Notes under the pieces: model-generated
Told to the model about the DNA's origin: nothing
Databases searched by the model: none
What the model saw: the letters and a program-made list of their open reading frames with translations, nothing else
Translations under genes and position numbers: made by a program
Assembly: GCA_016278285.1 (NCBI GenBank)
Contig: JADQCD010000240.1
Span: 1-33,694 of the forward strand
Direction: 5' to 3'
Origin: Actibacterium sp.
GTDB lineage: Bacteria; Pseudomonadota; Alphaproteobacteria; Rhodobacterales; Rhodobacteraceae
DNA: 33,694 bases
Shown: positions 352 through 25,251 of the stretch, in pieces
Numbering within the stretch: the stretch's first letter is position 1
How the letters are laid out: each line of letters begins with the position of its first letter

Positions 352-403
352 CTGTCTGCCTGTGGCAAAGCATAGCGCGCGACTGGGGCGAAAGTAAGAA
401 GCG

Positions 404-1159: not shown

Positions 1160-1254
1160 GCCCGTTTCCCTTTTCCGCCCGGATAGCGAAAGCGCGGGTT
1201 GCGGTCACGCGCCTGCCGCTCACATTACCGTGGGCTTACCACTGGACGGAGTGG

Positions 1255-1290
1255 CGGAAACGCCGGGCACATGGCCAGGCGTCCTTTCCG
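1255..1290 (-). terminator. Possible stem-loop just downstream of the rne stop codon
   Basis: cggaaacgccgggcacatggccaggcgtcctttccg: bulged inverted repeat (CGGAAA/TTTCCG, CGCC/GGCG). No clear U-tract. Confidence 0.3.
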
Positions 1291-1291
1291 A

Positions 1292-3847: not shown

Positions 3848-4256
3848 AGTGTTCCAATGCACCTCGGCATGCGTCCCGTCCCTGGCGGGGCGGCGCGATG
3901 CGGGTGGTGTCTGATTGTGGCGTGGGGTGGCGTGAAAGCGGCGCGAAGGGCGGTCCGATGCCTGCCCGTTCTTTGCCTGTCCATGTGCACGCGTTCCATC
4001 GCGGTTTGTCTCCGACGCCGAGTGCGGCATCCAATTATGCGGCCCGTCCCGTTAACGGCAAGGGCAATCTGGTGACCCGTAGGGCCGATCGGTCTGTTCC
4101 GGGCCGGGCCGGGCAAACGCACCGGGGCGACGCGGAATAAAGCGAATCTGATCAGGATGGCATCGCCGATATCCGGGCGTGCCCCCGTAGCGTTACCTTA
4201 TCGGCACTTTATGGTCGAAGACAATGATGTTTTTGTCATCCGCGACGATGCAGCGT

Positions 4257-5588: not shown

Positions 5589-5607
5589 CGGCCCCTCCTT
5601 TATGATC

Positions 5608-7371
5608 CTACTCCGCCGCCGCGGCGTTTTCTTCAAGCAATGGAAGTTGAACCTCGAAGACGGCGCCGCCGCTTCGGCCGTTATAGGCGGTCAGTCGGCC
5701 GCCATGGTCATTCACGATCCCCGATGAAATGGCCAGCCCCAGGCCGACGCCCTCGCCGGCGACCTTGGTCGTGTAGAACGGTTCGAACAACGCATCCAGA
5801 TCATCGACGCCGTGGCCGTTGTCGCGCACACGCAGCGTCGCCGTGTCGCCCGCCGTCAGGATCAGGTCGATTTGCGGTGAAGGGCTCAGCTTGGTCGCAT
5901 CCAGCGCATTCCGCAAAAGGTTGATGATTACCTGCTCCAACCGGATGCGATCGGCCATTACCATTACCGGATCCGGCGGCAATGTCCGCGTGATCGTTAC
6001 TTTCCGCCGCTTCAGCTGCGGTTCCATCATCGACAGCGCGGACGAGATCGACTGCTTGAAATCGACCGGTTCGAAAATGTCTCCGTCCTTGCGCGCATAG
6101 CTTTTCAATTGCCGGGTGATGGCGCCCATCCGTTCGATCAGGTCATCAATGCGCAGGAACGCGGCCATCGCCTCGTCGGGCCGCTTGCGTTGCAACAACA
6201 GCCGCGCACCGGCCAGATAGGTCTTCATTGCCGCAAGCGGCTGGTTCAACTCGTGACTGACCGCCGCCGACATCTCGCCCAATGCTGCCAGCTTGGAGCT
6301 TTGCGCAAGCGTCTGTTCAGCCACCTTGAGGTTCTTTTCCACCTTCTCGCGTTGGGCGATTTCCCGCTGCAAGCGCGCATTCAGCGCGCGCAACTCGGTC
6401 GTCTCCCGCTGGAAGAAGACAGAGCGGGACTGCGCCCGGCGGGAACTCACATAGAAACCAAGCGCCAGAACGATCGCAAACCCCATGATCTCGAGCGCGA
6501 GCACCCCGTTCACACGTTCACGGATCGAAGAATAAGTGGTGAAGCTTATCAGCCGCCAGCCACGGAACGGAATCCGTGCCTCATTGCGCATCACCGCCTC
6601 GCCCAGGACATAGGCATCGGGCGGCAGCGCAGCCCAGTCGGCGGTGACCTGGATCGCGCGCTGGATCGCGGTAGGCGCCGACCGCGCCGCAAGCGCCTCG
6701 TCAATCGTCAGGCCGCGCCAGCGCGGCTCGGTCGCCAGCAGAATCTCGCCCTCGCTGTTGGTGACAATGACCGCGTCGGAGATTCCGGCCCAGCTTTGCT
6801 CGAACTTTGCCAGATCGACAGCCACGGCAATCACGCCGATCATCTTGCGCTCGCTCACCATCCGTCGCGCATAAGTGAACGCATAGGAACCCGTTTCGGT
6901 CGGCGTGCTCAGAAAGACGGTGTCGTTGGTGCGCTGCGCTTCGATGAAATAGGGCTCCTGCATCAGGTTCGCGCCAATCCGGCTGCGGTCCGTGGCTGCC
7001 ACGACGCGCCCGTCCGAATCCAGCAGCGTGATCGATGCCGCGCCGATCTCGTCGACATAGGAAATAAGCCGCTGAGAGGTCTTCACGAAATCGCCCGAGT
7101 TCAACGCGCTGATAAGCGTGGGATCACGCGAAAGAAGCAGCGGCACAACCGAGGCACGCTGCAGTTCGCTCATCAGATTGCCCGCGTAAAGCGCCAGCCG
7201 CACCTCAGCCCGGTTGCGCGTCGCCGCGGTGAACCGTTCGCTCAGCAAGTCGTTGGTTATCCAGACCACGCCCGCCGCGACAAGGAAGAGCCCGGCCAGG
7301 ATCGCGCGCACGCGCCAGCCCACACCGCCCCGCGGCGGTGCCGGTGCCTCCGGTGTTCGGGATCTCGACAT
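5608..7371 (-). CDS. dctB: DctB-like membrane sensor histidine kinase
   Basis: 587 aa; N-terminal TM and extracytoplasmic sensor, AAVSHELNQPLAAMKTYLAGA H-box, NLLRNALDAT, DNGHGV, GLGLAIS ATPase motifs. Confidence 0.88.
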   Translation of the reverse strand: MSRSRTPEAPAPPRGGVGWRVRAILAGLFLVAAGVVWITNDLLSERFTAATRNRAEVRLALYAGNLMSELQRASVVPLLLSRDPTLISALNSGDFVKTSQRLISYVDEIGAASITLLDSDGRVVAATDRSRIGANLMQEPYFIEAQRTNDTVFLSTPTETGSYAFTYARRMVSERKMIGVIAVAVDLAKFEQSWAGISDAVIVTNSEGEILLATEPRWRGLTIDEALAARSAPTAIQRAIQVTADWAALPPDAYVLGEAVMRNEARIPFRGWRLISFTTYSSIRERVNGVLALEIMGFAIVLALGFYVSSRRAQSRSVFFQRETTELRALNARLQREIAQREKVEKNLKVAEQTLAQSSKLAALGEMSAAVSHELNQPLAAMKTYLAGARLLLQRKRPDEAMAAFLRIDDLIERMGAITRQLKSYARKDGDIFEPVDFKQSISSALSMMEPQLKRRKVTITRTLPPDPVMVMADRIRLEQVIINLLRNALDATKLSPSPQIDLILTAGDTATLRVRDNGHGVDDLDALFEPFYTTKVAGEGVGLGLAISSGIVNDHGGRLTAYNGRSGGAVFEVQLPLLEENAAAAE

Positions 7372-7416
7372 TACGCGAATGTAGGCGCTGCGCGGCAGCC
7401 GCTCAAGCGCGCAACA

Positions 7417-8091
7417 TCACGCCGGGGCCATCGCGCCGGCCAATGAGCGGAAAAGCACCGCCCCGTCGATATTGCCATGCGCCGCCTCGCTGGCACGTTC
7501 GGGATGCGGCATCATCCCCAGCACCCGGCGGTTCGCGCTGAGAATCCCGGCGATGTCGCCCACCGATCCGTTGGGGTTGTCGGTGTAGCGGAACGCGATC
7601 CGCCGCTCGTCTTCGAGCCGCGCCAGGGTGTCGGAATCCGCGGTAAAATTGCCGTCGTGATGCGCGATCGGCAGGGCGATCTCCTGCCCGGCCGCATAGG
7701 CGTTGGTGAAGGCGCTGTCGGCGGTTTCAACCCGCAGACCCACGGTACGGCAAATGTATTTGAGATTGGCATTGCGCATCAGCGCGCCGGGCAGCAACCC
7801 GGTCTCGGTCAGAACCTGAAAGCCATTGCAGATCCCGAGGACATACCCGCCCCGTTCCGCGAATTCCACGATCGCCCGGGTGATCGGCGAACGCGCGGCG
7901 ATCGCCCCGCAACGCAGATAATCACCGAAGGAAAATCCGCCGGGAATCGCCACCAGGTCCAGGCCGTCAGGCAGGCTGGTCTCCTTGTGCCAGACGATCC
8001 TTGCCGGCCCCGCACCGCCGACATGATTCAGCGCCACGGCCAGATCGCGGTCGCAGTTCGATCCGGGAAACTGTATGACAGCGCTTTTCAT
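7417..8091 (-). CDS. purQ: Phosphoribosylformylglycinamidine synthase, glutaminase subunit PurQ
   Basis: [21 protein letters not shown]...; [19 protein letters not shown] nucleophile Cys region; [10 protein letters not shown]. Start chosen at the second-frame Met with homology. Confidence 0.96.
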
Positions 8092-8107
8092 CTGGCTGCG
8101 TCCTTTT

Positions 8108-9148
8108 TCAACTGGAGAAATCGGTGATGACCGCGACGCCGGGCGCCGCCGGCCCGTCGAAGGCGGCCAGCTCGGCGCTCGCATCCGACAGGGTGACGCG
8201 CCGCGCGATCAGCGGTGTCAGGTCGACATGCCCGCCATCGATCAAATTCAGCAACCCGGAATAGCCCCAGGCCGGCATCCCCCGCGTGCCATAGATGGCC
8301 AGCTGTCCGGAATAAATCGCGTCCATGGGCAGGGTCATCGCCACATGTTCGCCCGCGGGCATGCCCACCTGCACCATGCGCCCGAGCTTGCGCAGCGACT
8401 TCAACGCCGGCACGACGGTTTCCGGAACGCCAAGCGCATCGATGGCCACATCGGCCCCGCCGCCGCTAAGCGTCCGCACCGCCTCGGCCGCATCGGAATG
8501 CGTGGCGTTGACCACCGCATCGGCCCCAAGCTGCCGTGCGAAATCCAGTTTTTCGTCAACAACATCGACGACCACGACCCGCGCGCCCAGTGCGCGCCCC
8601 AGCAGCAGGGCCGACAGCCCGACACCGCCGCCCCCGAAAACGGCCAGCCATTCACCCGGGGCCAGCGCCGCCCGCCCGGTCAGCGCGTGCCAGGCGGTGG
8701 TAACGCGACAGCCCAGTGCCGCGGCCAGGGCCGGGTCCATCCCCGCCGGCAGGCGGGTCAGGTTGGCATCGGCATGGGGCACCGCGATCCGCTCGGCAAA
8801 GGCACCCGCGTGCGTGAACCCCGGCAACGCCTGATCGGCGCAGATCGTCTGATGCCCCGCCGCACAGTCGGGACAATGGCCGCAGGCCAGGATGAACGGC
8901 GCGATGACCCGGTCGCCGGCGCGCCACCGTGTGACACCGACCCCCACCTCTTCGACGACGCCGCAATACTCGTGCCCCGGCACATGCGGCAGGTCCACCG
9001 GATCGCCGCCGGTCCAGACATGCCAGTCCGACCGGCACACGCCGCAAGCCAGCACGCGCAGAACTACTCCACCCTCGGGACAGACCGGCTCGGGCAGTTG
9101 CACGATGTCCAGGGGCGCGCGCCAGGCGCTCATCAATGCCGCGCGCAT
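8108..9148 (-). CDS. Zinc-dependent alcohol dehydrogenase (MDR family)
   Basis: 346 aa; [32 protein letters not shown] structural zinc, [21 protein letters not shown] nucleotide fold. Confidence 0.93.
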
Positions 9149-9149
9149 C

Positions 9150-9389
9150 TCAGCCGATCTCGATATCGTAGCGTTCGATCACCGTGTTGGCCAGCAGCTT
9201 CCCGCACATATCCTCGACTGTCGCCCGCGCCTTTCGCGCGTCGGTTTCCGCCAGTTCCAGGTCGATCACCTTGCCCTGGCGCACGCCCCCCACCCCGGTG
9301 AAACCCAGCGTTTCCAGGGCATGGCGCACGGCCTCGCCCTGCGGGTCCAGCACGCCATCCTTCAACATTACATGAACACGGGCTTTCAT
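9150..9389 (-). CDS. purS: Phosphoribosylformylglycinamidine synthase subunit PurS
   Basis: 79 aa MKARVHVMLKDGVLDPQGEAVRHALETLGFTGVGGVRQGKVIDLEL. Confidence 0.95.
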   Translation of the reverse strand: MKARVHVMLKDGVLDPQGEAVRHALETLGFTGVGGVRQGKVIDLELAETDARKARATVEDMCGKLLANTVIERYDIEIG

Positions 9390-9437
9390 CGCGGCGCCTT
9401 CCTCTTCATCTTGCCAGAAATACTCATTGAACTCCGC

Positions 9438-10199
9438 CTAGTTGATGAGCGTCGGCTTCGTGGCATGCGTCACGTTCGTCGGCAGCACGCCCAACCGTCG
9501 CGCCACTTCCGTATAGGCATCGGTCAGATTGCCCAGATCGCGCCGGAACACGTCCTTGTCCAGCTTCTGGCCGGTCTTGATGTCCCACAGGCGGCAACTG
9601 TCCGGGCTGATCTCGTCGGCCACCACCAGGCGCATGAAATCGCCCTCGTAGATCCGTCCGATCTCTATCTTGAAATCGACCAGCCTGATGCCGGCGCCAT
9701 ACATCACGCCCGACATGAAGTCATTGACGCGCAGCGCCAGCGCGATCATGTCGTCCAGGTCCTGCTGCGTCGCCCAGCCGAAGGCAATGATGTATTCCTC
9801 GGGCACCAGCGGGTCGCCCAGCGAATCCTGCTTGTAGCTGAACTCGACGATCGGGCGTGGCAGATCGGCGCCTTCCTCAAGCCCAAGTCGCTTGGCCATC
9901 GAGCCGGCAGCATAGTTGCGCACGATCACCTCCAGCGGGATGATCTCGACCGCGCGGATCAGCTGTTCACGCATGTTGATGCGCTTGATGAAATGGGTCG
10001 GCACACCGATCTGGGCCAGCCCGGTCATGAAGAATTCGCTGAGCCGGTTGTTCAGTACGCCCTTGCCTTCGACCGTTGCCCGCTTTTCGGCATTGAAGGC
10101 GGTTGCGTCATCCTTGAAATATTGAACCAGGGTGCCGGGTTCGGGCCCTTCGTAGAGAATTTTCGCCTTGCCCTCGTAGATTTTCTTGCGCCGTGCCAT
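9438..10199 (-). CDS. purC: Phosphoribosylaminoimidazole-succinocarboxamide synthase PurC
   Basis: 253 aa; [56 protein letters not shown]. Confidence 0.97.
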
Positions 10200-10380
10200 G
10201 GAAACTCCAAACTCGGGCCGTGGCCGCCCGCCATGCCCGTTCCTTGGCGCCCGTCTTATGCGATGGCAGGTGTCAGGGCAAGCGGCGGTGCAATACCGAC
10301 CGTCGCGCGACGCGAACCCCTAGGCATCTGCGCCGCAATCCCGTAAAAGCGCGGCAACGAGATTCTGGAGGACAAGGCCG

Positions 10381-10695
10381 ATGACGACCTTTGATGACCG
10401 CGAGAGTGCGTTTGAAAACAAATTCGCCCATGACGAGGAAATGAAGTTCCGCGCCCAGGCCCGCGCGAACAAGCTGCTGGGGCTCTGGGCGGCCGAATTG
10501 CTGGGCAAGACCGGCGACGAGGCGACGGCCTATGCCGCCGAGGTGGTGAAGGCCGATTTTGAAGAGGCCGGCACCGAGGATGTGTTTCGCAAGCTCTCCG
10601 GCGATCTGGGCAACAAGGCCGATGCCGCCACCATCCGCAAGATGATGATCGAATTGCAGGCCGAAGCCAAGGCCCAGTTGCTGCGCGAGGTCTGA
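10381..10695 (+). CDS. DUF1476 protein (F1Fo-ATPase inhibitor zeta-subunit-like)
   Basis: 104 aa MTTFDDRESAFENKFAHDEEMKFRAQARANKLLGLWAAELLG, characteristic of DUF1476. Confidence 0.92.
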   Translation: MTTFDDRESAFENKFAHDEEMKFRAQARANKLLGLWAAELLGKTGDEATAYAAEVVKADFEEAGTEDVFRKLSGDLGNKADAATIRKMMIELQAEAKAQLLREV

Positions 10696-10843
10696 TCGCG
10701 CTGCACGCCGGGCGCGGCACATGCCGCGACTGGGTGTGCATGTGACGATTATGACTCTGCTCGGGGCACACCGACATGATATCGGGGCGATGAATGCCGG
10801 GCCTTGCCGTGGCGCCCCAGTCCCAAGCCGAAGGACCGACCGC

Positions 10844-11854
10844 ATGAGCCAAGCCCTTTCTCGTCTTCTTGCCGAGCGCGACTGGCTGCTTGCCGATGGG
10901 GCCACAGGTACGAACCTGTTCAACATGGGCCTGCAGTCGGGCGACGCGCCTGAATTGTGGAATGTCGATCAGCCTGAAAGGATCCGGACCCTCTATCGCG
11001 GCGCGGTAGAGGCCGGGTCGGACCTGTTCCTGACCAACAGTTTCGGTGCCAATGCCGCGCGGCTGAAACTGCACGCGGCACAGGGCCGGGTACGCGAATT
11101 GAATCGCGCCGCTGCCGAGCTGGGCCGCGAAGTCGCCGACTCCGCCGGGCGGCCAGTCGTGGTGGCAGGTTCGATCGGCCCGACGGGTGAAATCATGGAA
11201 CCGATGGGCAACCTGTCTTATGCCGGTGCCGTAGAGATCTTCCATGAACAGGCCGAGGGCCTGAAAGAAGGCGGCACCGACGTTCTGTGGGTCGAAACGA
11301 TCTCGGCCGCCGATGAATACAAGGCCGCAGGTGAGGCCGCGAAACTGGCCGGAATGCCGTGGTGCGGCACCATGAGCTTCGACACCGCAGGGCGCACGAT
11401 GATGGGCCTGACCTCGTCCAACATGGTCGAGATGGTGGACAAGCTGCCTTATCCACCGCTGGCCTTTGGCGCGAATTGCGGCGTCGGCGCGTCCGACCTC
11501 TTGCGCACGCTGCTGGGTTTCGCCGCCTCAGGCAGCGAATTGCCGCTCATCGCAAAGGGCAACGCGGGAATCCCGAAATATCAGGACGGCCACATCCATT
11601 ATGACGGGACGCCGGCCCTGATGGCCGATTACGCGGTGCTGGCGCGCGACTGCGGCGCGACGATTATCGGCGGCTGTTGCGGCACCACGCCCGAGCATCT
11701 GCGCGCCATGCGCGAGGCGCTGGAAATCCGCGCGCGCGGGCCGCGCCCGACACTGGACCAGATCACCGATGCCCTCGGCCCCTTCTCTTCGGCCGTGGAC
11801 GGCACCGGGGCGGATGAAGCGTCGCCCCGTCCCCGCCGCCGGCGTCGGAGCTGA
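10844..11854 (+). CDS. Betaine/homocysteine S-methyltransferase family protein (MetH homocysteine domain-like)
   Basis: MSQALSRLLAERDWLLADGATGTNLFNMGLQSGDAPELWN; zinc-ligand regions FGANCGVG and IIGGCCGTTPEHLRAM. Confidence 0.92.
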   Translation: MSQALSRLLAERDWLLADGATGTNLFNMGLQSGDAPELWNVDQPERIRTLYRGAVEAGSDLFLTNSFGANAARLKLHAAQGRVRELNRAAAELGREVADSAGRPVVVAGSIGPTGEIMEPMGNLSYAGAVEIFHEQAEGLKEGGTDVLWVETISAADEYKAAGEAAKLAGMPWCGTMSFDTAGRTMMGLTSSNMVEMVDKLPYPPLAFGANCGVGASDLLRTLLGFAASGSELPLIAKGNAGIPKYQDGHIHYDGTPALMADYAVLARDCGATIIGGCCGTTPEHLRAMREALEIRARGPRPTLDQITDALGPFSSAVDGTGADEASPRPRRRRRS

Positions 11855-11858
11855 CCGG

Positions 11859-12947
11859 TCAGAACAGCGACAACTGATCGCCGGGGCGCGGTGGAATCCG
11901 AAACCTGGAACTGTCCAGTGGCGGAAGCGTTGCGTTCAGCCCCAGCGATCGTGCGGCCCGGTTGAACCGGGCGGCCATCATCTGGGCGTAATGCCCTTGT
12001 CCGCGCATCCGTTTTCCCCATTCGGAATCATAATCCTTGCCGCCATGCATTTCGCGCAGTCGCGCCATCACGCGGCCTGCACGGTCCGGGAAATGCTCGG
12101 CCAGCCAGTCCTGGAACAGGCCGGACACTTCGCGCGGCAGACGCAGCATGACCCAGCTTGCCGCGATGGCGCCGGCGCGTTTTCCGGCACCCAGGATCGC
12201 CTCGATCTCGTGGTCCGTCAGCGCCGGGATCATCGGTGCGGCCATGATCCGCGTCTCGATCCCGGCTGCGGCCAGCCGCTCGACAGTCTTGAGCCGTCGT
12301 TCCGGGGCGGGGGCGCGTGGTTCCATCCGGCGGCTCAGGTCGCGCTCCAGCGTGGTGACCGAGATGCCGACCCTAACCAGCCGGTAACGCGCCATGTCCG
12401 AAAGGATGTCGATGTCCCGTTCGATCAGCGTGCCCTTTGTCACGATGCCCACCGGGTGGCGGTGCGCCCACAACACCTCAAGGATGCCACGCATGATCCG
12501 CTGGTCCTTTTCGATCGGCTGATAGGGGTCTGTGTTGGTGCCGATGGCGATGGTACGCGGCGCGTAATTCCTTTTCGCCAGTTCACCGGACAGCACCGCA
12601 GGCGCCTCTGGCCGGGCCACCAGCCGTGTTTCGAAATCCAGACCGGGGGACAGGCCCAACCATGCATGGCTAGGGCGCGCGAAGCAATAGATGCAGCCAT
12701 GCTCGCACCCGCGATAGGGATTGATCGAGCGATCGAAGGGCACGTCGGGCGAGGTGTTGCGCGTGATCACGCTGCGCGGCCGCTCGATGCTCAACTCGGT
12801 GCGTAGCGCTGGCAGATCGTCGTCGCGCGGCCAGCCATCGTCGACGAGGACGCGGTCATAGGGCTCGAACCGGCCGGTGCGGTTGCTGGCGGCAGCCCGA
12901 CCCCTGCGCAGCGCGGCGGCGTCCTTGTGCGATGGTGATACCGTCAT
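11859..12947 (-). CDS. PA0069-family radical SAM protein (SPL-like)
   Basis: NPYRGCEHGCIYCFARPSHAWLGLSPGLDFET (CxxxCxxC); start at MTVSPSHKDAAALRRGRAA. Confidence 0.9.
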   Translation of the reverse strand: MTVSPSHKDAAALRRGRAAASNRTGRFEPYDRVLVDDGWPRDDDLPALRTELSIERPRSVITRNTSPDVPFDRSINPYRGCEHGCIYCFARPSHAWLGLSPGLDFETRLVARPEAPAVLSGELAKRNYAPRTIAIGTNTDPYQPIEKDQRIMRGILEVLWAHRHPVGIVTKGTLIERDIDILSDMARYRLVRVGISVTTLERDLSRRMEPRAPAPERRLKTVERLAAAGIETRIMAAPMIPALTDHEIEAILGAGKRAGAIAASWVMLRLPREVSGLFQDWLAEHFPDRAGRVMARLREMHGGKDYDSEWGKRMRGQGHYAQMMAARFNRAARSLGLNATLPPLDSSRFRIPPRPGDQLSLF

Positions 12948-13150
12948 GGAACGAAGGTAGAACATTTTCACGCGCCACGCCAGCCCCGCGCCGGGGCGCG
13001 AGTCGGAAACCTCGCTCCAGGCGGGCTTTGCGCGGGTGGGCGTCGGTTGCAGCCCCGCCAATGTCGCAATCCGCCATGTCGCGGCGGCGCATTCCTTTAT
13101 CACCCATTCAACTTGCGCGAACACCGCCCAGCCCCGGGAGATCAAGACAA

Positions 13151-13855
13151 ATGGCCGACGACGAAGACGACATCATCCTCTCGGAACTCTCCGACGAAGA
13201 GCTTGTCCTGCAAATGCATGACGACCTTTACGACGGCTTGAAGGAAGAGATCGAGGAGGGTGTGAACATCCTTCTGGAGCGCGGCTGGGAACCCTACAAG
13301 GTGCTGACCGAAGCGCTTGTCGCCGGCATGACGATCGTCGGGCGCGACTTCCGCGACGGCATCCTTTTCGTGCCCGAGGTTCTGCTGGCCGCCAACGCGA
13401 TGAAGGGGGGGATGTTCATCCTCAAACCGCTGCTGGCCGAAACCGGCGCGCCGCGCATGGGCAAGATGGTGATCGGCACCGTCAAGGGCGACATCCACGA
13501 CATCGGCAAGAACCTTGTCAGCATGATGATGGAAGGTGCCGGGTTCGAGGTGGTGGACCTGGGTATCAACAACGCGGTCGAGGCCTATCTCGAGGCGCTG
13601 GAGACCGAGCAGCCCGACATCCTGGGCATGTCCGCCCTGCTGACCACGACGATGCCCTACATGAAGGTGGTGATCGACACGCTGAAGGAACAAGGCAAGC
13701 GTGACGATTACATCGTGCTGGTCGGCGGCGCGCCGCTGAACGAGGAATTCGGACGCGCCATCGGCGCTGACGCATATTGCCGCGATGCCGCCGTCGCAGT
13801 GGAAACCGCCAAGGATTTCATGACGCGCAAACACAACCAGCTGGCTTCCGGCTGA
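13151..13855 (+). CDS. Stand-alone cobalamin-binding corrinoid protein (MtbC/MetH B12-domain-like)
   Basis: GTVKGDIHDIGKNLVSMMMEGAGFEVVDLG (DxHxxG B12 motif), LVGGAPLNEEF; N-terminal helical cap domain. Confidence 0.95.
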   Translation: MADDEDDIILSELSDEELVLQMHDDLYDGLKEEIEEGVNILLERGWEPYKVLTEALVAGMTIVGRDFRDGILFVPEVLLAANAMKGGMFILKPLLAETGAPRMGKMVIGTVKGDIHDIGKNLVSMMMEGAGFEVVDLGINNAVEAYLEALETEQPDILGMSALLTTTMPYMKVVIDTLKEQGKRDDYIVLVGGAPLNEEFGRAIGADAYCRDAAVAVETAKDFMTRKHNQLASG

Positions 13856-13913
13856 TCCGGCCCCCTTCCCTTCCCCGACCGTCGCCCCCAGATCATGGGA
13901 AACGGAGGTCGCC

Positions 13914-14090
13914 ATGCCCGCCAGTCGCCTTGCCGTGATCCTTGCCGTCGTCCTGCTTGCCGCCGCGCTTACGGTCTTTGCGGGCGCGCAACTGTCCGGT
14001 GGCACGGGCGCGGTCGGATATGTCGTGCTGCCAGCCCTGCTGGTGGCAATGGCCCTGATCGGGCGCCTCTGGTCGCGTCGGAGAAAATGA
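13914..14090 (+). CDS. Small membrane protein, 58 aa, two predicted hydrophobic helices
   Basis: ATG with ggagg upstream; MPASRLAVILAVVLLAAALTVFAGAQLSGGTGAVGYVVLPALLVAMALIGRLWSRRRK; stop 1 nt before the next ATG. Confidence 0.6.
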   Translation: MPASRLAVILAVVLLAAALTVFAGAQLSGGTGAVGYVVLPALLVAMALIGRLWSRRRK

Positions 14091-14091
14091 G

Positions 14092-14727
14092 ATGGAACTG
14101 GACGACAAGGCACTGACCACCGGCGGGTTGGATCTGTCCTCGGGCAAGGGCCGCGTCCTGCTGATCGCCTGCGGTGCACTGGCGCATGAGATCCTGGCGC
14201 TGAAGGCGGCCAACGGCTGGACCCATATCGACCTGACCTGCCTGCCCGCGATCCTGCATAACCATCCCGGCCGCATCACCCCCGCCGTCGTGGCCGCGGT
14301 GGAAAAGCATCGCGCCACCTATGACGATATCTTCGTGGTCTATGCCGATTGCGGCACCGGCGGACAGTTACAGGACGCCTGCGCGCGGCTTGGCGTGCAG
14401 ATGATGGAAGGTCCGCATTGCTATTCCTTCTTCGAGGGCAACGCCGACTTCGCCGAGCGGGATGAGGCAACGGCCTTCTATCTGACTGATTTCCTGGTGC
14501 GCCAGTTCGACGCCTTCGTGTGGAAACCGCTTGGCCTGGACCGCCACCCGGAATTGCTGGAGATGTATTTCGGCAATTACGAAACGCTGGTCTACCAGGC
14601 CCAGACCGACGATGCCGCGTTGGACGCCAAGGCGGCGGACTGCGCCGCCCGGCTGGGCCTTGCCTATGAGCGGCGCTTTACCGGGTATGGCGATCTGGTC
14701 GGCACGCTGGCGCGAGTCGCCGAATAG
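14092..14727 (+). CDS. DUF1638 domain protein
   Basis: 211 aa; GKGRVLLIACGALAHEILALKAANGWTHIDLTCLPAILHNHPGRITPAV, YADCGTGGQLQDACARLGVQMMEGPHCYSFF. Confidence 0.88.
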   Translation: MELDDKALTTGGLDLSSGKGRVLLIACGALAHEILALKAANGWTHIDLTCLPAILHNHPGRITPAVVAAVEKHRATYDDIFVVYADCGTGGQLQDACARLGVQMMEGPHCYSFFEGNADFAERDEATAFYLTDFLVRQFDAFVWKPLGLDRHPELLEMYFGNYETLVYQAQTDDAALDAKAADCAARLGLAYERRFTGYGDLVGTLARVAE

Positions 14728-14842
14728 CGCATGTCGCCGGGATATCACCTCTGCGCCGTTTGGTGGGTATCCACGCCATCAACAACAAAGCCGGGCTTGA
14801 TCCCATGACGCCCCGGTCCCGGTGGGACGGGTTTCGCGTTCT

Positions 14843-15538
14843 TCAGCCCAACGCATAGCCGGCGCCGCGGACGGTGCGCAGCGGGTCTGCCCCGCCGTGC
14901 TGACGCAGTGCCTTGCGCAGCCGCCCGATATGAACGTCGACGGTGCGGGTATCGACATAGATGTCGTGGCCCCAAACGCGGTCCAGCAATTGTTCGCGGC
15001 TCCAGACCCGGCCCGGTTTTTCCATGAAGGTCGACAACAGCCGGAACTCCGTCGGCCCCAGTTTCAGGGGCATGCCTTCGCGCGTCACCCGATGGGTTTC
15101 GCCGTCCAGCACGATATCCTCGTAGGTCAGTTGCCCGCCAACCGCGGCCGGGCGGGTCCGGCGCAGCTGGGCGCGGACACGCGCCATCAGCTCGACGATG
15201 GAATACGGCTTGATGACGTAATCGTCGGCGCCGGTTTCAAGCCCCCGCACCCTGTCGACCTCTTCCGACCGGGCGCTTAGCATGATGATCGGCAGTTCGC
15301 GCGTCTCGGAGCGGGTCTTGATCCGCCGACAGACCTCGATGCCCGAGACCTTGGGCAGCATCCAGTCCAGCACGATGATGTCCGGCGGGAATTCCCTGAC
15401 CTGCAACAGCGCCTCTTCACCGTTTTCTGCACGCGACACAGTGAAACCCTCGGCTTCCAGGTTATAGGCCAGAACCTCGCGCTGCGACGGCTCGTCCTCG
15501 ACAACCAGAACCCGTGGCTGTTCGGCGGCGGCCATCAC
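14843..15538 (-). CDS. phoB: Phosphate regulon response regulator PhoB
   Basis: LVVEDEPSQREVLAYNLEAEGF receiver, OmpR-type wHTH (LGPTEFRLLSTFMEKPGRVWSREQLLDRVWG); downstream of phoU. Confidence 0.95.
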   Translation of the reverse strand: MMAAAEQPRVLVVEDEPSQREVLAYNLEAEGFTVSRAENGEEALLQVREFPPDIIVLDWMLPKVSGIEVCRRIKTRSETRELPIIMLSARSEEVDRVRGLETGADDYVIKPYSIVELMARVRAQLRRTRPAAVGGQLTYEDIVLDGETHRVTREGMPLKLGPTEFRLLSTFMEKPGRVWSREQLLDRVWGHDIYVDTRTVDVHIGRLRKALRQHGGADPLRTVRGAGYALG

Positions 15539-16257
15539 TCATCCACCTCGGCATTCTGAAACGGGGTCCGGTCGCCCTTGGGCCGGTCGTCCTCGGGCAT
15601 CACCCCGGTGCTGAGATAGATCACCTGCTCGGCGATCGCCGTGACATGATCGCCCATGCGCTCGATGTTCTTGGCAATGAAATGCAGATGCATGCAGGCG
15701 GTGATGTTGCGCGGATCCTCCATCATGAAAGTCAGGAATTCGCGGAACAGCGCGTTGTACATCTGGTCCACCTCATGGTCGCGCATCCGCACGTCCTGGG
15801 CCAGTTCCGCATCGCGCTGGATATAGGCGTCCAGCGCGTCCTTCAGCATCCCTTCTACGGTCTTGCCCATGCGCCGGATCGCGCCCGCCGCGCCTTCAAC
15901 GGGCTGCATCTGCACCAGAACCGAGGTCCGCTTGGCCAGGTTCTTGGCATAATCGCCCACGCGCTCTAGGTTGCCCGATATCTTCATCACCGTCAGAACG
16001 GTGCGCAAATCCGTCGCCGTGGGCGAGCGCAGCGCGATCACGCGCGCGCATTCCTCGTTCACCTGCTCTTCCAGCTCGTCGATCGCCTTGTCGCCGCGGC
16101 GGACGCTTTCGGCCAGTTCCTCGTCGCGCCGCTCCAGCGATGTGGCCGCATCGAGGATCGCGGCCTCGACCAGGCCGCCCATCTTCATGATCATCGCCTG
16201 GATAGCCTCCAGGTCGCGGTCATAGGAGGCAACGATATGGTGTCCTTGATCCGACAT
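15535..16257 (-). CDS. phoU: Phosphate signalling complex protein PhoU
   Basis: MSDQGHHIVASYDRDLEAIQAMIMKMGGLVEAAI..., NLERVGDYAKNLAKR, NIERMGDHVTAIAEQVIY; 4-nt overlap with phoB. Confidence 0.95.
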   Translation of the reverse strand: MSDQGHHIVASYDRDLEAIQAMIMKMGGLVEAAILDAATSLERRDEELAESVRRGDKAIDELEEQVNEECARVIALRSPTATDLRTVLTVMKISGNLERVGDYAKNLAKRTSVLVQMQPVEGAAGAIRRMGKTVEGMLKDALDAYIQRDAELAQDVRMRDHEVDQMYNALFREFLTFMMEDPRNITACMHLHFIAKNIERMGDHVTAIAEQVIYLSTGVMPEDDRPKGDRTPFQNAEVDE

Positions 16258-16273
16258 CTTCCCGGTCCCTTTC

Positions 16274-17071
16274 TCAGCCGATCCGGCCGGTAATGTAACT
16301 TTCGGTCCGCGGGTCGCGCGGATTGGTAAATATCTGCCCGGTCTCGCCATATTCCACGAGGTTGCCGAGATGAAAGAAAGCCGTCTTGTGGCTGACGCGC
16401 GCGGCCTGTTGCATGGAATGGGTGACGATCACCACCGAATAGTCCTTGCGCAGCTCGTCGATCAGTTCCTCGACCTGGGCGGTCGCGATCGGGTCCAGCG
16501 CGCTGCACGGCTCGTCCATCAACAGAACCTCGGGCTGGGTCGCAATGGCGCGCGCGATGCACAGCCGTTGCTGCTGACCGCCGGACAGGCCGGTGCCCGG
16601 CGCGTCCAGCCGATCCTTCACCTCGTCCCAGATGGCCCCGCGGCGCAGGGATTTCTCGACGATCTCGTCCAGTTCGGCCTTGCCGCGGGCCAGGCCGTGG
16701 ATGCGTGGCCCATAGGCGATGTTGTCATAGATCGATTTCGGAAACGGGTTCGGTTTCTGAAAGACCATGCCCACCTTCGCGCGCAGCTGCACCGGATCGA
16801 CCCGCGGGTCATAGATATCCTGGCCATCCAGCGTGATCGTGCCTTCGATCCGGCAGTTGTCGATCATGTCGTTCATCCGGTTGAGGCAGCGCAGAAAGGT
16901 GGATTTCCCGCAGCCCGAGGGACCGATGAACGCGGTCACGGTCTTTTCCTCGATATCCACGTTGACGTCCTTGATGGCGTGGTTGTCGCCGTACCATACC
17001 TGACAGTCACGGGCGGAAATCTTGACCTCTCTGGCGTCCACGTCTCTCTCCACTTTTCGCATGTCGTTCAT
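16274..17071 (-). CDS. pstB: Phosphate ABC transporter ATPase PstB
   Basis: [47 protein letters not shown]. Confidence 0.97.
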
Positions 17072-17087
17072 TGTCGTGGTCCCGTTT

Positions 17088-18374
17088 CTACCATTTCCGC
17101 TCGAACTTGCTACGCAGATAGATCGCCAAGGCGTTCATCGCGATCAGGAACGTCAGAAGCACCAGGATCGCGGCCGAGGTGCGGCTGACGAAGCCGCGCT
17201 CCGGGCTGTCGGCCCAGATGAAGATTTGCGTGGGCAGCGCCGTGGCGCTGTCCAGAGGTGAACCGGGCGCCGAGGTGATGAAGGCGTTCATCCCGATCAG
17301 CAACAGCGGCGCGGTTTCCCCCAACGCCTGGGCGAGACCGATGATGGTGCCGGTCAGGATGCCCGGCATCGCCAGCGGCAGGACATGACCGAACACCACC
17401 TGGTGCTTGGACGCCCCGACGCCCAGTGCTGCCTGGCGAATCGAGGGCGGCACCGATTTCAGCGCAGCCCGTGTGGCAATGATGATCGTTGGCATGGTCA
17501 TCAGCGCAAGAGTCATGCCCCCCACCAGCGGCGCCGAGCGCGGGAGCCCGAACCAGCCCAGGAAAACCGCCAGTGCAAGCAGGCCGAACACCACCGATGG
17601 CACCGCGGCGAGGTTGTTGATATTGACCTCGATCAGGTCGCTGAATCTATTTCTGGGTGCGAATTCCTCAAGGTAGATCGCCGCGCCGATACCCAGCGGG
17701 AAGGATATCACGAAACACACCAGAAGCGCCCAGAACGACCCCACCAAAGCGCCCTTCAGCCCCGCGAGTTCCGGAAAGCGCGAATCGGCATTGGTCAGAA
17801 GCGCCCAGTTCAGCGGCTTGCTGATTGCGCCCGATTGTTTCAACTGGTCGAACCAGGCGATGGCCTGATCCTTGACCTGGCGCAGTTCCTCGGGCGTGCT
17901 GCGATCCACAAGGCCCTTGTTCAGCTGGTCGAAACGGTCCGAGACAGGCACCGTCACCCTGATGGTCTGGCCGATCAGCGACGGGTTTTCGACGATCCGG
18001 TCACGCAGCTGGAATTGCGCACCATTGCTCAGGATGTCGGTCAGTGCCCGGGTTTCGGCACGCCCTTCGACAGTGGGAAACTTCTTCAAGAGCGCGGTTT
18101 CGATCACGTCATCGAATCCGCCGCGCGGCAGACGCTCGACCTGGATCTCGGCGGGGTCGATGAAGACGTCCAGGGTCAGGTGGGTCTGCGTGAACGCCTT
18201 GTAGCCCGACGCGATCAGCGAGCCGACCAGGATGACCAGCATCAGCAGGGCAAAGCCGATCGCGGCCATGCCGATGATCTGCAACCTGATCTGGTATCGA
18301 TTGCGCCGGCGCAGCGCCGGGCCGGCATTTGGCGCCAGCAATCCGCTTTCGCGCGAAGCGTCGGTATCGGCCAT
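17088..18374 (-). CDS. pstA: Phosphate ABC transporter permease PstA with large periplasmic insert
   Basis: Permease C-terminal half ([36 protein letters not shown]-like [32 protein letters not shown]); start [13 protein letters not shown]. Confidence 0.94.
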
Positions 18375-18384
18375 GGCGTCCCCC

Positions 18385-19760
18385 TCAGTCGTAGGCTTCG
18401 CGATACTTGCGCACGATGCGCAACGCGAAGACGTTGATGACAAGCGTAACGATGAACAGCATCATCCCCAGTGCGAAAGCCGCGAGCGTCTTGGGATTGT
18501 CGAAAGAGGTGTCGCCGATCAGCAAGGTGACGATCTGAACCGTCACAGTGGTGACGCTTTCCAGCGGGTTGATCGTCATCTTGGCCATCAATCCTGCGGC
18601 CATGACGACGATCATGGTCTCGCCGATGGCGCGACTGACCGCCAGAAGGACACCGCCGACAATGCCGGGGATGGCGGCAGGAAACAGCACCGTGGTCATC
18701 ATCTCGGCCCGTGTGGCGCCCAGCCCCAGCGCCCCTTCGCGCAGCGCCTGCGGCACCGCCGACAGCGCGTCGTCAGCGAAGGATGAGATGAACGGGATCA
18801 GCATGACGCCCATCACCCCGCCTGCCGCAAGCGCCGTGTTCGGCGAAACATCCAGCCCTAGCGACTGACCGAAATCGCGAATCACCGGCGCCACGACCAG
18901 GATGGCGAAGAAGCCGTAAACCACCGTCGGCACGCCGGCCAGGATTTCAAGCAACGGCTTGGCCGTCGCGCGGAACCATTTCGGAGCGAATTCATTCAGA
19001 TAGATGGCCGACATCAACCCCACCGGCACCGCCAGAACAAGGGCGACCACGGTGATGACCATGGTGCCGAGGATGACCGGCACCCAGCCGAAAGCACCGG
19101 CAGCGGCGACCTGACCCTCGCGGATTGGAATCTGCGGTTCCCAGTTGATGCCGAACAGGAATTTGGTGAACGGCACCTTTTCGAAGAACTTCAGCGTTTC
19201 GAACAGCAACGATCCGATGATGCCGAGGGTCACGAAGATCGCCACCACCGCACAGAAGATCATCAGCCCGGAAACGATCCGCTCGACCCCGTGGCGGGCG
19301 CGGAATTCGGCCGAAACTCGGCGCCGCGAAAACAGCACAAGCGCCCCGGACAGGCCCAGCGTAATGGCCAGCAGGGCCCAGACAGAGATATCGTGCAGCC
19401 GAACCAGTTGCCGCGCCGCTTCCATCTTCCACGGCTCCGGCGTGCCGAAGATGTTGCCTGCGGCGATCGAACTGATTTCTGCCTGGATCAATTGCCTCGC
19501 GCCGCTATCCAGCCCTTCCAGCGCGCCGTCGGGCAGGCTGTTCATGACGATGGCGGTTATCACCGGGCCTTGCAGAGCGAGCCATAGAAGGATCAGCACG
19601 AAAACCGGAATGAACGACACAGGAACGCATACATCCCGTGAAAGCCCGACAGCGAATGCAGCCTCCCGCCCCCTGCGCGCAGCGCAGCCGCCGCCTGACG
19701 GTTCCAGATATACCCGGCAATCGACATTGCCAGAAGCAGGACGAAGGCGAAGAGTGTCAT
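18385..19760 (-). CDS. pstC: Phosphate ABC transporter permease PstC, apparently frameshifted near codon ~48
   Basis: C-terminal frame carries PstC motifs (LLEILAGVPTVVYGFFAILVV, SRAIGETMIVVMAAGLMAKM). The plausible N-terminus MTLFAFVLLLAMSIAGYIWNRQAAAALRAGGGRLHSLSGFHGMYAFL starts at 19760 in another frame. Span is 1376 nt, one short of a multiple of 3. Confidence 0.88.
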
Positions 19761-19785
19761 GGGATGGACTCTTGGATGAAATGAA

Positions 19786-19815
19786 ACCGCCGCCCGAATA
19801 CACGCGGGCGGCGGT
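19786..19815 (-). promoter_or_regulatory. Intercistronic stem-loop between pstS and pstC
   Basis: Perfect 11-bp inverted repeat accgccgcccg-aatacacg-cgggcggcggt in the 71-nt gap between pstS stop and pstC start. Confidence 0.75.
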
Positions 19816-19831
19816 CGGGATCAACCGAAGC

Positions 19832-20863
19832 TTATTTCTTCGGGTCCATGGCAATGGCCTCGATGGCCTCTTTCTGCTCCTGGGCGCGCTTCTTGTCACC
19901 CAGAGGAACAAGACCGCGCTCGGCCAGGTAACCGCCCGGGCCCATCGCATCCTCGGAGACATATTCCTCGATGAAGCCCTGAAGGTTCGGGATCACGCCG
20001 CGATGCGCGTTCTTGGTGTAGAAGAACAGCGGGCGCGCGATGTCGTATTCACCCGATTCGATCGTTTCGAAGCTGGGCTCGACACCGGCGATGGCAACCG
20101 GCTTCAGCGTGTCCTGGTTTTCGAACAGGAAGGAATAGCCAAAGATGCCCACGGCATGCGCATCGGCCTGAAGTCGCTGCACGATCAGGTTGTCGTTCTC
20201 GCCGGCCTCGATGAACGGGCCGTCCTGACGCAGGCGGGCGCAATTCTGTTCGGCCCAGTCTTCGCCCTTTTCGGCGATCATCGGGATGTCCATGCAGCCG
20301 TCAACGATGGCCAGTTCGACAAAGGCGTCGCGGGTGCCCGAGGTTGGCGGCGGACCATAGGCAAGGATTTCCTCGTCCGGCAGGGCCGGGTCGATGTCGG
20401 ACCATTTGGTGTAGGGGTTGGCGACCATTTCGCCGTCGACCGGCACTTCGGCGGCCAGCGCGCGATACACCTGCTCTTCGGTCAGGTTCCAGTCGTATTC
20501 GCTGTCGCGCGACACGGCGATCGACAGACCGTCGCTGCCGATCTGCACTTCGGTGATGTCATCGACACCGTTGCCGACGCACAGATCCCACTCGGACGCT
20601 TTCATGGCGCGCGAGGCGCCGGTGATGTCCGGGAATGATTCGCCGATGCCCTGGCAGAAGATCTTCATGCCGCCGCCGGTGCCGGTGGATTCGACGACCG
20701 GAGAGGGCGCGCCGGTCATGTTCGCAAACTGTTCGGCCACGGCCTGCGTATAGGGAAACACGGTGGACGACCCGACGATGCGGATCTCGTCGCGCGCCGC
20801 CGCAGCCGTGGCAGACAGGGCAGCGATCGCCATGGTCGAGGCGGTCAGTTTCACAAAGGACAT
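19832..20863 (-). CDS. pstS: Phosphate-binding periplasmic protein PstS
   Basis: Signal peptide; RIVGSSTVFPYTQAVAEQFANMTGAPSPVVESTGTGGGMKIFCQG. Confidence 0.96.
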   Translation of the reverse strand: MSFVKLTASTMAIAALSATAAAARDEIRIVGSSTVFPYTQAVAEQFANMTGAPSPVVESTGTGGGMKIFCQGIGESFPDITGASRAMKASEWDLCVGNGVDDITEVQIGSDGLSIAVSRDSEYDWNLTEEQVYRALAAEVPVDGEMVANPYTKWSDIDPALPDEEILAYGPPPTSGTRDAFVELAIVDGCMDIPMIAEKGEDWAEQNCARLRQDGPFIEAGENDNLIVQRLQADAHAVGIFGYSFLFENQDTLKPVAIAGVEPSFETIESGEYDIARPLFFYTKNAHRGVIPNLQGFIEEYVSEDAMGPGGYLAERGLVPLGDKKRAQEQKEAIEAIAMDPKK

Positions 20864-20944
20864 ATCTTGCTCCTGATATCTCGTGTTCGGTCACCCGTCC
20901 GAGCAACCTTGGGCTGCGTCCTAGGCGCGGCGCACTATGGTTTT

Positions 20945-20973
20945 GTGACAGTAGTGTAACAGTTTCATGACAA
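20945..20973 (-). promoter_or_regulatory. PHO box (PhoB-binding tandem repeats) upstream of pstS
   Basis: On the minus strand: TTGTCATgaaaCTGTTACactaCTGTCAC, three 7-mers at exact 11-bp periodicity, about 80 bp upstream of the pstS start. Confidence 0.88.
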
Positions 20974-21033
20974 CCGATGGATCCGACAGCGCGCAGTTTC
21001 GTTGCGTCGGTTCGACCCCGCGTCGCGGGTGCC

Positions 21034-22074
21034 TCAAGCCACGGGCAACATGACGGAAAAGCGGCTTCCCTGTCCTGGCCGGCTCTCGATCCGAAAACGG
21101 CCGCGATGACGGTTCACGATATGCTTGACGATCGCCAGACCCAGCCCGGTGCCGCCCATCTCGCGGCTTCGGTGGCTATCGACGCGATAGAATCGTTCGG
21201 TGAGTCGCGGGATGTGGACCGGGTCGAACCCTTCGCCACGGTCGATGACGCTGACCGTCAGGCCGGGTCCGCGGAAGGCGAGTTCGCGTTCGGTCAGGGC
21301 GGTATCCACCGTCACCTCGCCCCCCGAGCCGCCGTATTTGATGCCATTCTCGATCAGGTTCGTGAAAACCTGGGTCAGCTGATCGGCATCGCCCAACACC
21401 ATCACCGGCGCCTCACGCCCGGTGACGGCCAGATCGACGCCGGCCGTCCGGGCCATGGGGGTTAGCGTGCGGACGCAGGAATTCACCAATGCGACGGCAT
21501 CGATCCGGGTGGCCGGGCGCATACGCTCTTCGCTTTCGACGCGCGACAGCGACAACAGGTCGGATACAAGCCGGTTCATCCGCTCCGCCTCATGCGCCAT
21601 GATGTCCAGAAACCGCGCTCGTGCCTGCGGATCGTCGCGTGCGGGGCCGCGCAAGGTTTCTATGAACCCCAGAAGCGCGGTCAGCGGCGTCTTGAGCTCA
21701 TGGCTGACATTGGCCACGAAATCGCGGCGGATCTGCCCGGCCTGCTCGCGGTCGGTCACGTCCTCGAAACAGACAAGCGCGCCGCTTCCGTAGTCGCCCT
21801 CTACCGGCGACGCGGTGACCTCGTATGCCGCCTCGCGCCCCAGGTCGGTGGTCAGGTAACGGATCCGGCACTGCTGGCGCAGGCGCAGCGTCTCTTCGAC
21901 GCAATCCAGCAACGCGGGCTGCCGCAAAACGGTGATGTAGTTCCGCCCGACACCGGCGGCCCCGAACAATGTCCGGGCGCGGTCGTTCATGGCCCCCACC
22001 CGGTCATCCGGTCCAACGAACAGCATCGGAAGTGGCACTGCCGCCAACACTGCATCCGGAAAATCGGAACTCAT
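21034..22074 (-). CDS. phoR: Phosphate regulon sensor kinase PhoR (PAS + HisKA + HATPase)
   Basis: FVANVSHELKTPLTALLGFIETLRG H-box; NLIENGIKYG; GGTGLGLAIVKHIVNRHRG; first gene before pstS. Confidence 0.92.
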   Translation of the reverse strand: MSSDFPDAVLAAVPLPMLFVGPDDRVGAMNDRARTLFGAAGVGRNYITVLRQPALLDCVEETLRLRQQCRIRYLTTDLGREAAYEVTASPVEGDYGSGALVCFEDVTDREQAGQIRRDFVANVSHELKTPLTALLGFIETLRGPARDDPQARARFLDIMAHEAERMNRLVSDLLSLSRVESEERMRPATRIDAVALVNSCVRTLTPMARTAGVDLAVTGREAPVMVLGDADQLTQVFTNLIENGIKYGGSGGEVTVDTALTERELAFRGPGLTVSVIDRGEGFDPVHIPRLTERFYRVDSHRSREMGGTGLGLAIVKHIVNRHRGRFRIESRPGQGSRFSVMLPVA

Positions 22075-22309
22075 TCAAGGCCTCCGGGCTGTGCGTTCTG
22101 ACCGGACCGTTGCCCAGAGCGCGCCTATTGTAAATGCCGTGCCAACAACAGAGTTGCCCGGCGACGCAAATGCCGCTTAAGCTGCATGACATGTTAAGAT
22201 GCGCAGCATCCTGCGCAGGGATGGTTCGCCCCGCGCCGCATGGTCGCCCGAAAACGGGCGCCCGAGGATGAGCTTTTCCAGGCCGCATCTGTCACTGAAC
22301 ACCGCAGTG

Positions 22310-22642
22310 ATGACCAGACCTTGCGTTCTTGCCATCGGCTTCCAGCCTGAGGACCTGCCGCAATGGCCCGGGCAGACGCCGCCCGCCGAGATGCGCTTTG
22401 TGCCCTTACACCAACTGGGCGATAACCTGGCAGACGCGGCCGGCGTGGATTGCGTGGTTTGTCCGCTGGTCACGGCCCGGTTCGACGCGCTGGAAGTGGC
22501 TGCCGAATTGTCGCGGGCGCGGTTTCACGGCACACTGGTTCTGGTCATGCCGCGTGTGCCACGGCCGCAGATCATCGTGCGCGAACTCAAACAGATCTGT
22601 CCCGGCCTTTCGGTCGAGTTGGTTCACAAGGCGCCTCACTAG
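22310..22642 (+). CDS. Hypothetical protein, ~110 aa
   Basis: MTRPCVLAIGFQPEDLPQWPGQTPPAEMRFVPLHQLGDNLADAAGVDCVVCPLVTARFDALEVAAELSRARFHGTLVLVMPRVPRPQIIVRELKQICPGLSVELVHKAPH; amphipathic alpha/beta composition. The ORF track also allows an upstream start at 22199. Confidence 0.65.
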   Translation: MTRPCVLAIGFQPEDLPQWPGQTPPAEMRFVPLHQLGDNLADAAGVDCVVCPLVTARFDALEVAAELSRARFHGTLVLVMPRVPRPQIIVRELKQICPGLSVELVHKAPH

Positions 22643-23820
22643 GCGCGCGTGGCCGCCACGGCGGCCCCCAGTTCTTCTATCAGCAGGTCGGCGGACTCCA
22701 CCCCCACCGAGACGCGGAAGAACCCCTCGCCAATTCCCAGTGCGGCACGGGCCTCGGGGCTCAGCGCACGATGCGAGCTGGACGGCGGATGCGACAGCGT
22801 GGTGCCTATATCGCCCAGTGTCGGCGCAAAGGCGATCTGCGGACAGGCGCGGGTAAAGGCGTTGGCCGCTTCGCGCCCGCCGTTCAGCTCGAAGCTCAGC
22901 ATGTTGCCTGTGCGCGCCCCCAGCAGCGCGGCAGCGCGCGCATGGTCGGGATGATCGGCGCGACCGGGATAGAGCACCTGTTTCACCCCCGCCATTCGAG
23001 CCAGCGCGTCGGCCAGAGCCCTGGCGTTTTCCTCCGCCCGGTCATAGCGCAGCTCGAAGGAATAGAGCCCCCGCTCGGCCAGCCAGCAATCGAACGGGCT
23101 GGGCGTCAGGCCCAGCGTCACCGACGTATCGCGGATCGCCTTTTGCAGATCCGGGTCGCGCGCCACGGCATAACCCAGCGTTGCGTCGGAATGGCCGGCC
23201 AGCAGCTTGGTCACCGAATGGATAACGATATCCGCGCCGTGTTGAAATGGACGAAAGGCGCGCGGCGTTGTGAAGGTGTTGTCCACCGCCAGCAGGATGC
23301 CGCGTTCCCGCGCCAATGCGGCGATACCCGCCATGTCGGCCACCCGCAGGGTCGGGTTGGACACCAGCTCGATCAGGATCATCCGGGTCTCGGGCCGCAG
23401 CGCCGCCGCGACGGCCGCCACATCCGTCGGATCGACCAGCGAGGTGGCGATGCCGAAGCGCGGCAATTCCTCGGCCATCATCCGCAGCGACCGGCCGTAA
23501 AGCTGATCGCCGCCCAGCACATGATCGCCCGCCTTCAGGCAACCCAGCATCACCGCCGTGACCGCGGCCATGCCCGAGCCGGTAACGATGCCGTCCTGCG
23601 CCCCTTCCATCCCGTCGATCATTCGGGCCAGAACATCGGCGTTCGGATGCCCTTCGCGCGCGTAGGCATAGCCCGCAACGCGGCCCTCATACTGATCATC
23701 CAGCGCATCGGGACTTTCGGCGGCATAGACGACCGAGGGCTGCAACGGCGTGACCACCGGGCGCGAGGCGCTTTGCGGCCATTCGGTGCGGCGCACCAGC
23801 GTGCGGGGCGGTCTGGTCAT
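22639..23820 (-). CDS. Cys/Met metabolism PLP-dependent enzyme (cystathionine gamma-synthase/lyase family)
   Basis: MTRPPRTLVRRTEWPQSASRPVVTPLQPSVVYAAESPDALDDQYEGRVAGYAYAREGHPN; HSVTKLLAGHSDATLGY PLP-lysine region. Confidence 0.92.
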   Translation of the reverse strand: MTRPPRTLVRRTEWPQSASRPVVTPLQPSVVYAAESPDALDDQYEGRVAGYAYAREGHPNADVLARMIDGMEGAQDGIVTGSGMAAVTAVMLGCLKAGDHVLGGDQLYGRSLRMMAEELPRFGIATSLVDPTDVAAVAAALRPETRMILIELVSNPTLRVADMAGIAALARERGILLAVDNTFTTPRAFRPFQHGADIVIHSVTKLLAGHSDATLGYAVARDPDLQKAIRDTSVTLGLTPSPFDCWLAERGLYSFELRYDRAEENARALADALARMAGVKQVLYPGRADHPDHARAAALLGARTGNMLSFELNGGREAANAFTRACPQIAFAPTLGDIGTTLSHPPSSSHRALSPEARAALGIGEGFFRVSVGVESADLLIEELGAAVAATRA

Positions 23821-23845: not shown

Positions 23846-24376
23846 TCAGCGAACGGGGGCAAGCCCCTGCCGGAACCGGCGCATGTTATCCTGATAGTGC
23901 CGTGCCGATGCACGCACCCCCTCGATCGCCGTGTCATCCAGCTGACGCACCACCTTGCCCGGCGCGCCCATCACCAGGCTGCCATCGGGAATTTCCTTGC
24001 CCTCGGTAATCAGCGCACCGGCCCCGATCAGGCAGTTGCGCCCGATCCTCGCGCCGTTCAGCACCGTGGCCCCCATCCCGATCAGGCACTCGTCGCCGAT
24101 GGTGCAGCCATGCAGCATCGCCTTGTGCCCGATGGTACAGTCGCGCCCGATGGTCAGCGGAAAACCCATGTCCGTGTGGCAGACCGTGTTTTCCTGCACA
24201 TTGCTGCCCGCGCCGACGGTAATCCGCTCGTTATCGCCGCGCAGGGTGCTGCCGAACCAGACCGACGCGCCGTCCTCCAGCGTCACCTTGCCGATCAGGT
24301 TGGCGTCCGGGGCCACCCACCAATCCCCGTCGGCGGGCAGAGTCGGGGAAATGCCGTCAAGCGTGTAAAGTGTCAT
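23846..24376 (-). CDS. Gamma-carbonic anhydrase family protein (left-handed beta-helix)
   Basis: [72 protein letters not shown] hexapeptide repeats with His ligands. Confidence 0.95.
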
Positions 24377-25014
24377 TGCCGGTCCTCGAATTCCATTTGC
24401 AGGCTGCGCACCGTCTCGATCAGACCCGGCTGTTGACTGCGGCGCAGCCGTTCGGCGCTGACGATGGTGCGCAAGCGGTTTTCGGTGATGTCCAGATCGT
24501 CATTGACCAGAACGTAATCGTAACTGTCCCAATGGCTGATCTCGTCCCAGCTGCGGCTCATCCGGCGGCGTACGGTTTCGGGATCGTCCTGGGCGCGCTC
24601 GATCAGGCGGCGGCGCAACTCGGCGATCGACGGCGGAAGCAGGAAGATCGACAGCACATGCTCTTGCAGAGACGAATTGCGGATCTGCTGCGCGCCCTGC
24701 CAGTCGATATCAAACAGCACGTCGATCCCGTCCTCGATCGCCGCGGCCACCGGGCCACGCGGCGAGCCGTAGAAATTGCCGAACACATGGGCATGTTCAA
24801 GCATTTCGCCTTCGGCCACCATGCGCTTGAACCCCGCTTCGTCGGTGAAGTGATAATCGCTCCCGTCCACTTCGCCGGGGCGCGGTGTGCGGGTCGTGGC
24901 CGAGACTGAAAACCGGATCGAGGGGTCCCAGTCGCGCAGCCTGCGGGCCAGCGTCGACTTTCCGGCGCCGGATGGGGACGAAAGGATGATCAGCAGCCCG
25001 CGCCGGTCGGTCAT
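24373..25014 (-). CDS. gmk: Guanylate kinase
   Basis: [44 protein letters not shown]; 4-nt overlap with the downstream gene. Confidence 0.97.
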
Positions 25015-25017
25015 GAT

Positions 25018-25251
25018 CTATTCCACATTCTGAACCTGCTCGCGCATCTGATCGATGGAGGCCTTGAGGTCAAGGCCGATCCGGGTGAGCGTGCTTGACT
25101 GTGCCTTGAGGCACAGCGTGTTGGCCTCGCGGCTGAATTCCTGCACCCGGACATCCAGCCCCCGCGCATTGACGCCGCGCATTTCCCAGGTCCAGCCAAA
25201 ATTCGCCTGCGTCCCGCTGGCCGAGGCGAACCCGGCCATGGACTTAACCAT
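25018..25251 (-). pseudogene. yicC: Internally deleted YicC/YloC-family endoribonuclease remnant ('mini-YicC', 77 aa, frame intact)
   Basis: MVKSMAGFASASGTQANFGWTWEMRGVNARGLDVR (YicC N-terminus) fused directly to VQEFSREANTLCLKAQSSTLTRIGLDLKASIDQMREQVQNVE (YicC C-terminus); immediately upstream of gmk as in canonical yicC-gmk order. Confidence 0.85.

Follow-up and report, generated by a model that had tools for sequence, protein, structure and literature searches.

YicC has been described as an RNase that all bacteria conserve. It belongs to the YicC/YloC endoribonuclease family (RNase CS), which is represented by the models TIGR00255 and PF03755 plus PF08340 and by the structures of E. coli YicC (PDB 8VER, 8VES, and 8HVJ). 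According to Wu et al., the central part of YicC constitutes the cap through which the hexamer forms, and replacement of E216, E217, E252, E281, R30, R251, R280, M5, N28, or F244 of the E. coli protein by alanine renders cleavage undetectable (PMC10793500). In Clostridioides difficile, the yicC-family gene CD25890, located upstream of gmk, was deleted by engineering, and gmk expression remained unchanged (PMC8041843).

The window analyzed here, a stretch of 33,694 nucleotides, contains a yicC remnant of 77 aa on the minus strand (25018..25251), assigned by its ORF, Pfam, NCBIfam, and alignments. The remnant is composed of YicC residues 1–35 followed by the last 42 residues. According to the alignment, the retained 5′ part (codons 1–35) corresponds to 25147..25251, and the retained 3′ part (the last 42 codons plus the stop) to 25018..25146, both on the minus strand. 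The frame is free of internal stops and frameshifts. Both ends score above the Pfam curated cut-offs (YicC-like_C, 55.6 bits; YicC-like_N, 35.1 bits), and the C-terminal part aligns with residues 239–287 of the solved E. coli YicC (E 1.5e-12). The full-length NCBIfam model TIGR00255 gives 64.3 bits versus a cut-off of 167.5, which falls short of a full-length family match. An intact gmk gene encoding guanylate kinase (24373..25014, minus strand; ORF and locus reading) starts three bases past the yicC stop. The ORF coordinates, Pfam matches, and alignment with E. coli YicC thus bear out the first-pass annotation, which had described a 77-aa ORF with YicC-like termini in the yicC position upstream of gmk. 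The remnant shares with the YicC/YloC family the first 35 and last 42 residues as well as the location upstream of gmk, but lacks the central 219 residues, including the cap and Glu216/Glu217 (77 versus 296 aa).

Bacteria generally lose genes, among other ways, through in-frame deletions that join short direct repeats. The remnant resembles such deletions in keeping a single repeat copy at the join with everything between the copies gone, and shows no essential difference from them, its repeat being imperfect. The congener G001, the sole other genome of the genus compared, has yicC intact (296 aa) in the corresponding position, flanked by the same neighbors. Alignment with this gene yields two blocks with 657 bp (219 codons) missing between them, an exact in-frame deletion of the middle three quarters of the gene. 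The two blocks meet at window positions 25143-25159, and in G001 their registers differ by 657 bp. Relative to the intact orthologue at the same locus, the remnant has undergone a disabling change. The ends of the deletion coincide with two imperfect repeats, CTGGATnTCCnGnTGC, whose arms in G001 are CTGGATCTCCGGTTGC and CTCGATTTCCTGATGC. The arms are identical at 12 of 16 positions, a level reached by just 0.04% of the position pairs in yicC. At the junction (25143..25158, minus strand; alignment), one imperfect 16-bp copy is left and the 657 bp of the congener are absent.

This pattern fits a deletion between short imperfect repeats, as judged from the two sequences. The parent gene would have been of full length and similar to that of G001, with its GLDVR stretch (codons 31–35) and a KLDFL stretch ~657 bp downstream forming the imperfect 16-bp repeat. 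The loss of 219 codons together with one repeat copy would then probably have occurred by slippage of one arm onto the other or by their annealing. The first-pass annotation had proposed a precise in-frame deletion of about 200 codons between short similar sequences; the frame, the repeat, and the suggested codon boundary (25147|25146) agree with our alignment, and the size is revised to 219 codons. The same annotation had taken the retained frame, start, stop, and operon position to suggest either very recent loss or a functional miniature. However, 61 of the 85 repeat pairs in the gene at the level of at least 12/16 are in frame, so that frame retention by itself is weak evidence of selection or function.

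The hexamer-forming cap lies within the 219 deleted codons, as defined by the comparison with G001. Among the glutamates needed for cleavage, E252 and E281 are kept, whereas E216 and E217 belong to the deleted part. The three arginines R30, R251, and R280 all align with identical residues in the remnant, M5 and N28 are likewise kept, and the F244 position is occupied by Val. Given the residue roles known from the literature, the remnant should not cut RNA, because it lacks the cap and two of the four catalytic glutamates.

The source assembly comprises 3.1 Mb in 322 contigs and is rated 100% complete. Searches with the family models found no second yicC in this assembly, making the remnant its only YicC trace, and a search for the 219 missing residues gave no hit elsewhere in it. 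As a positive control, a comparable full-length YicC query detects the G001 gene. The check for another full-length yicC advised in the first-pass annotation thus gave a negative result. A weak 38-nt DNA match on contig C305 was rejected as a chance match inside a LacI-type-regulator-like gene.

The substitutions in the remnant may point to relaxed constraint. It possesses Ala6 at a site occupied by Thr in 68 of 68 relatives, and its last 42 residues include four that are present in no relative, the highest number of any sequence. The remnant is farther from the outgroups than G001 in 63 of 67 comparisons, which are not independent, by a mean of about two residues. Between the remnant and G001, dN/dS is 0.157 for the C-terminal part, 0.51 for the N-terminal part, and 0.062 for gmk. 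The C-part value does not exceed the median among other pairs for the same codons (0.188), a poorly calibrated and biased yardstick, as these are distant pairs from different genera with low apparent and unreliable dS. The low C-part dN at a dS of 0.41 could reflect a full gene that selection maintained through most of the period after the species split and that was then recently deleted; a constrained miniature would explain it equally well. In a simulation assuming indels at 8% of substitutions, a useless ORF of this length stays intact with a chance of ~0.4 at 0.03 neutral changes per site and ~0.05 at 0.1. A short ORF thus often survives early decay, and an intact frame is unsurprising if the deletion is recent.

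The best reading of the locus is a recent natural null allele of yicC that arose from one deletion, to which we assign a probability of about 0.78. This reading rests on the intact gene of the congener at the same locus, the 657-bp difference, the lack of a detected second yicC, the loss of the cap together with E216/E217, and the Val at the F244 position. It is further supported by the similarity of the junction arms, the small size of all other gaps in the blocks aligned to G001, the recurrence of yicC loss in the family, the residues unseen in relatives, and the unchanged gmk expression in the C. difficile deletion. The downstream gmk is probably expressed as before, as the deletion keeps the reading frame and leaves its end three bases from gmk; this would help such a yicC allele to be tolerated. 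The intact ORF, the absence of clear relaxation in the C-part dN/dS relative to the median of other pairs, and the restriction to a single assembly count against it. The first-pass annotation had offered very recent loss or a functional miniature; the former is now favored, and the latter has gained no positive support.

Loss of yicC recurs in the bacterial family of the source genome. The gene is present in 255 of 298 family genomes (230 of 263 good-quality ones) and has no detectable match in the remaining 43, including 33 of the 263 good ones, or about one in eight. The genomes in which no yicC was detected include G013, G024, G030, and G120. A match to gmk was found in 14 of the 16 yicC-less family genomes searched, and in none of the searched genomes was a yicC-like ORF seen directly upstream of gmk. 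G013 and G030 also gave no match to the gmk query, which may point to gaps in their assemblies. Partial matches in four family genomes (G128, G184, G186, and G252) were set aside, since their coordinates and frame lengths make them look like genes cut off at contig ends or divergent genes, and not like miniatures. At one locus (L007, in G026), yicC makes up the last part of an exceptionally long open frame (695 aa), which may be a real fusion or just an open GC-rich frame.

A role confined to translation of the neighboring gene is a possible, though rather unlikely, alternative that is compatible with a null allele and does not exclude it. The remnant would then serve only to bring ribosomes and RNA polymerase into gmk, and the in-frame form would have been favored over other deletions. 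In line with this, each of the 68 full-length loci read has gmk directly after yicC, in most cases closely spaced. In the present locus, the stop of the remnant is three bases from the gmk start, and no terminator-like or promoter-like site was found between the two. However, in-frame outcomes are common by chance for such repeats in this gene, yicC-less family genomes have gmk without such a leader, and gmk expression was unchanged in the C. difficile deletion (PMC8041843). The predicted RNA fold where yicC borders gmk does not surpass that of shuffled sequences (z −0.26). The C. difficile case resembles the present one in the removal of a yicC-family gene upstream of gmk, but there the deletion was engineered and gmk expression was measured, whereas the remnant is a natural allele in a distant organism, known from its sequence.

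Less probable is an assembly artefact, in which the genome would possess yicC at full length, the 657 bp having been dropped by the assembler or in a chimeric molecule. The draft state of the assembly with its many contigs, and the observation of the allele in one assembly only, would allow this. However, exact identity between the two arms is limited to short stretches, below the usual k-mer overlap of assemblers, so a real joined molecule would probably be needed, and the missing middle is found on no other contig. In addition, all other gaps within the blocks aligned to G001 are at most 21 bases, which speaks against a generally faulty assembly. Elsewhere in the window, about 4.5 kb (16361-20893) have no match in the compared G001 stretch, where the flanks 14845-16360 and 20894-22670 are nearly adjacent; the greater part of an ABC transporter ATPase gene (16274-17071) falls within the unmatched segment. 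Positions 1-3196 match G001 in inverted orientation relative to the remaining window, and 3197-14844 have no match in the part of G001 compared.

Very improbable is a functional miniature, a folded 77-aa protein that would bind RNA or some other partner but not cut. The retained RNA-binding arginines, the uninterrupted ORF, and an AlphaFold model with a beta hairpin and two helices (mean pLDDT 76.7, moderate confidence) would agree with it, although the alignment behind the model misplaces about ten junction residues and makes it a rough guide only. Without the cap, however, the RNA-enclosing hexamer cannot form as in YicC, which together with the loss of half of the essential glutamates and the uniqueness of the form leaves the earlier suggestion of a partial oligomerisation piece unsupported (PMC10793500 for the cap). 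The residues unseen in relatives, one of them at an invariant site, also argue against it, and the best structural match is YicC itself (47 columns, E 0.41), as any YicC fragment would give. The form occurs in no other genome examined: scanning 84,980 species genomes with the junction pattern, a set in which records near the source genome may be absent, revealed no second mini-YicC of this exact junction type. The pattern, which was degenerate, gave 51 matches, none of which is YicC by tblastn. A functional miniature, if true, would uncouple the binding of RNA by YicC from its cleavage. Its most specific form, a small RNA-binding protein made together with guanylate kinase that keeps the YicC arginines and has lost cutting and the hexamer, is the least credible proposal considered here.

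The feature is real and most likely represents an ordinary recent null allele in a family with repeated loss of yicC. With the null allele, the cell would have lost a YicC function that appears dispensable in the family, and the loss in about one-eighth of the good family genomes is a modest pointer to such dispensability in this group. The locus would thus be a natural and clean case in which a supposedly universal bacterial RNase was lost, no second copy being detectable in the genome.
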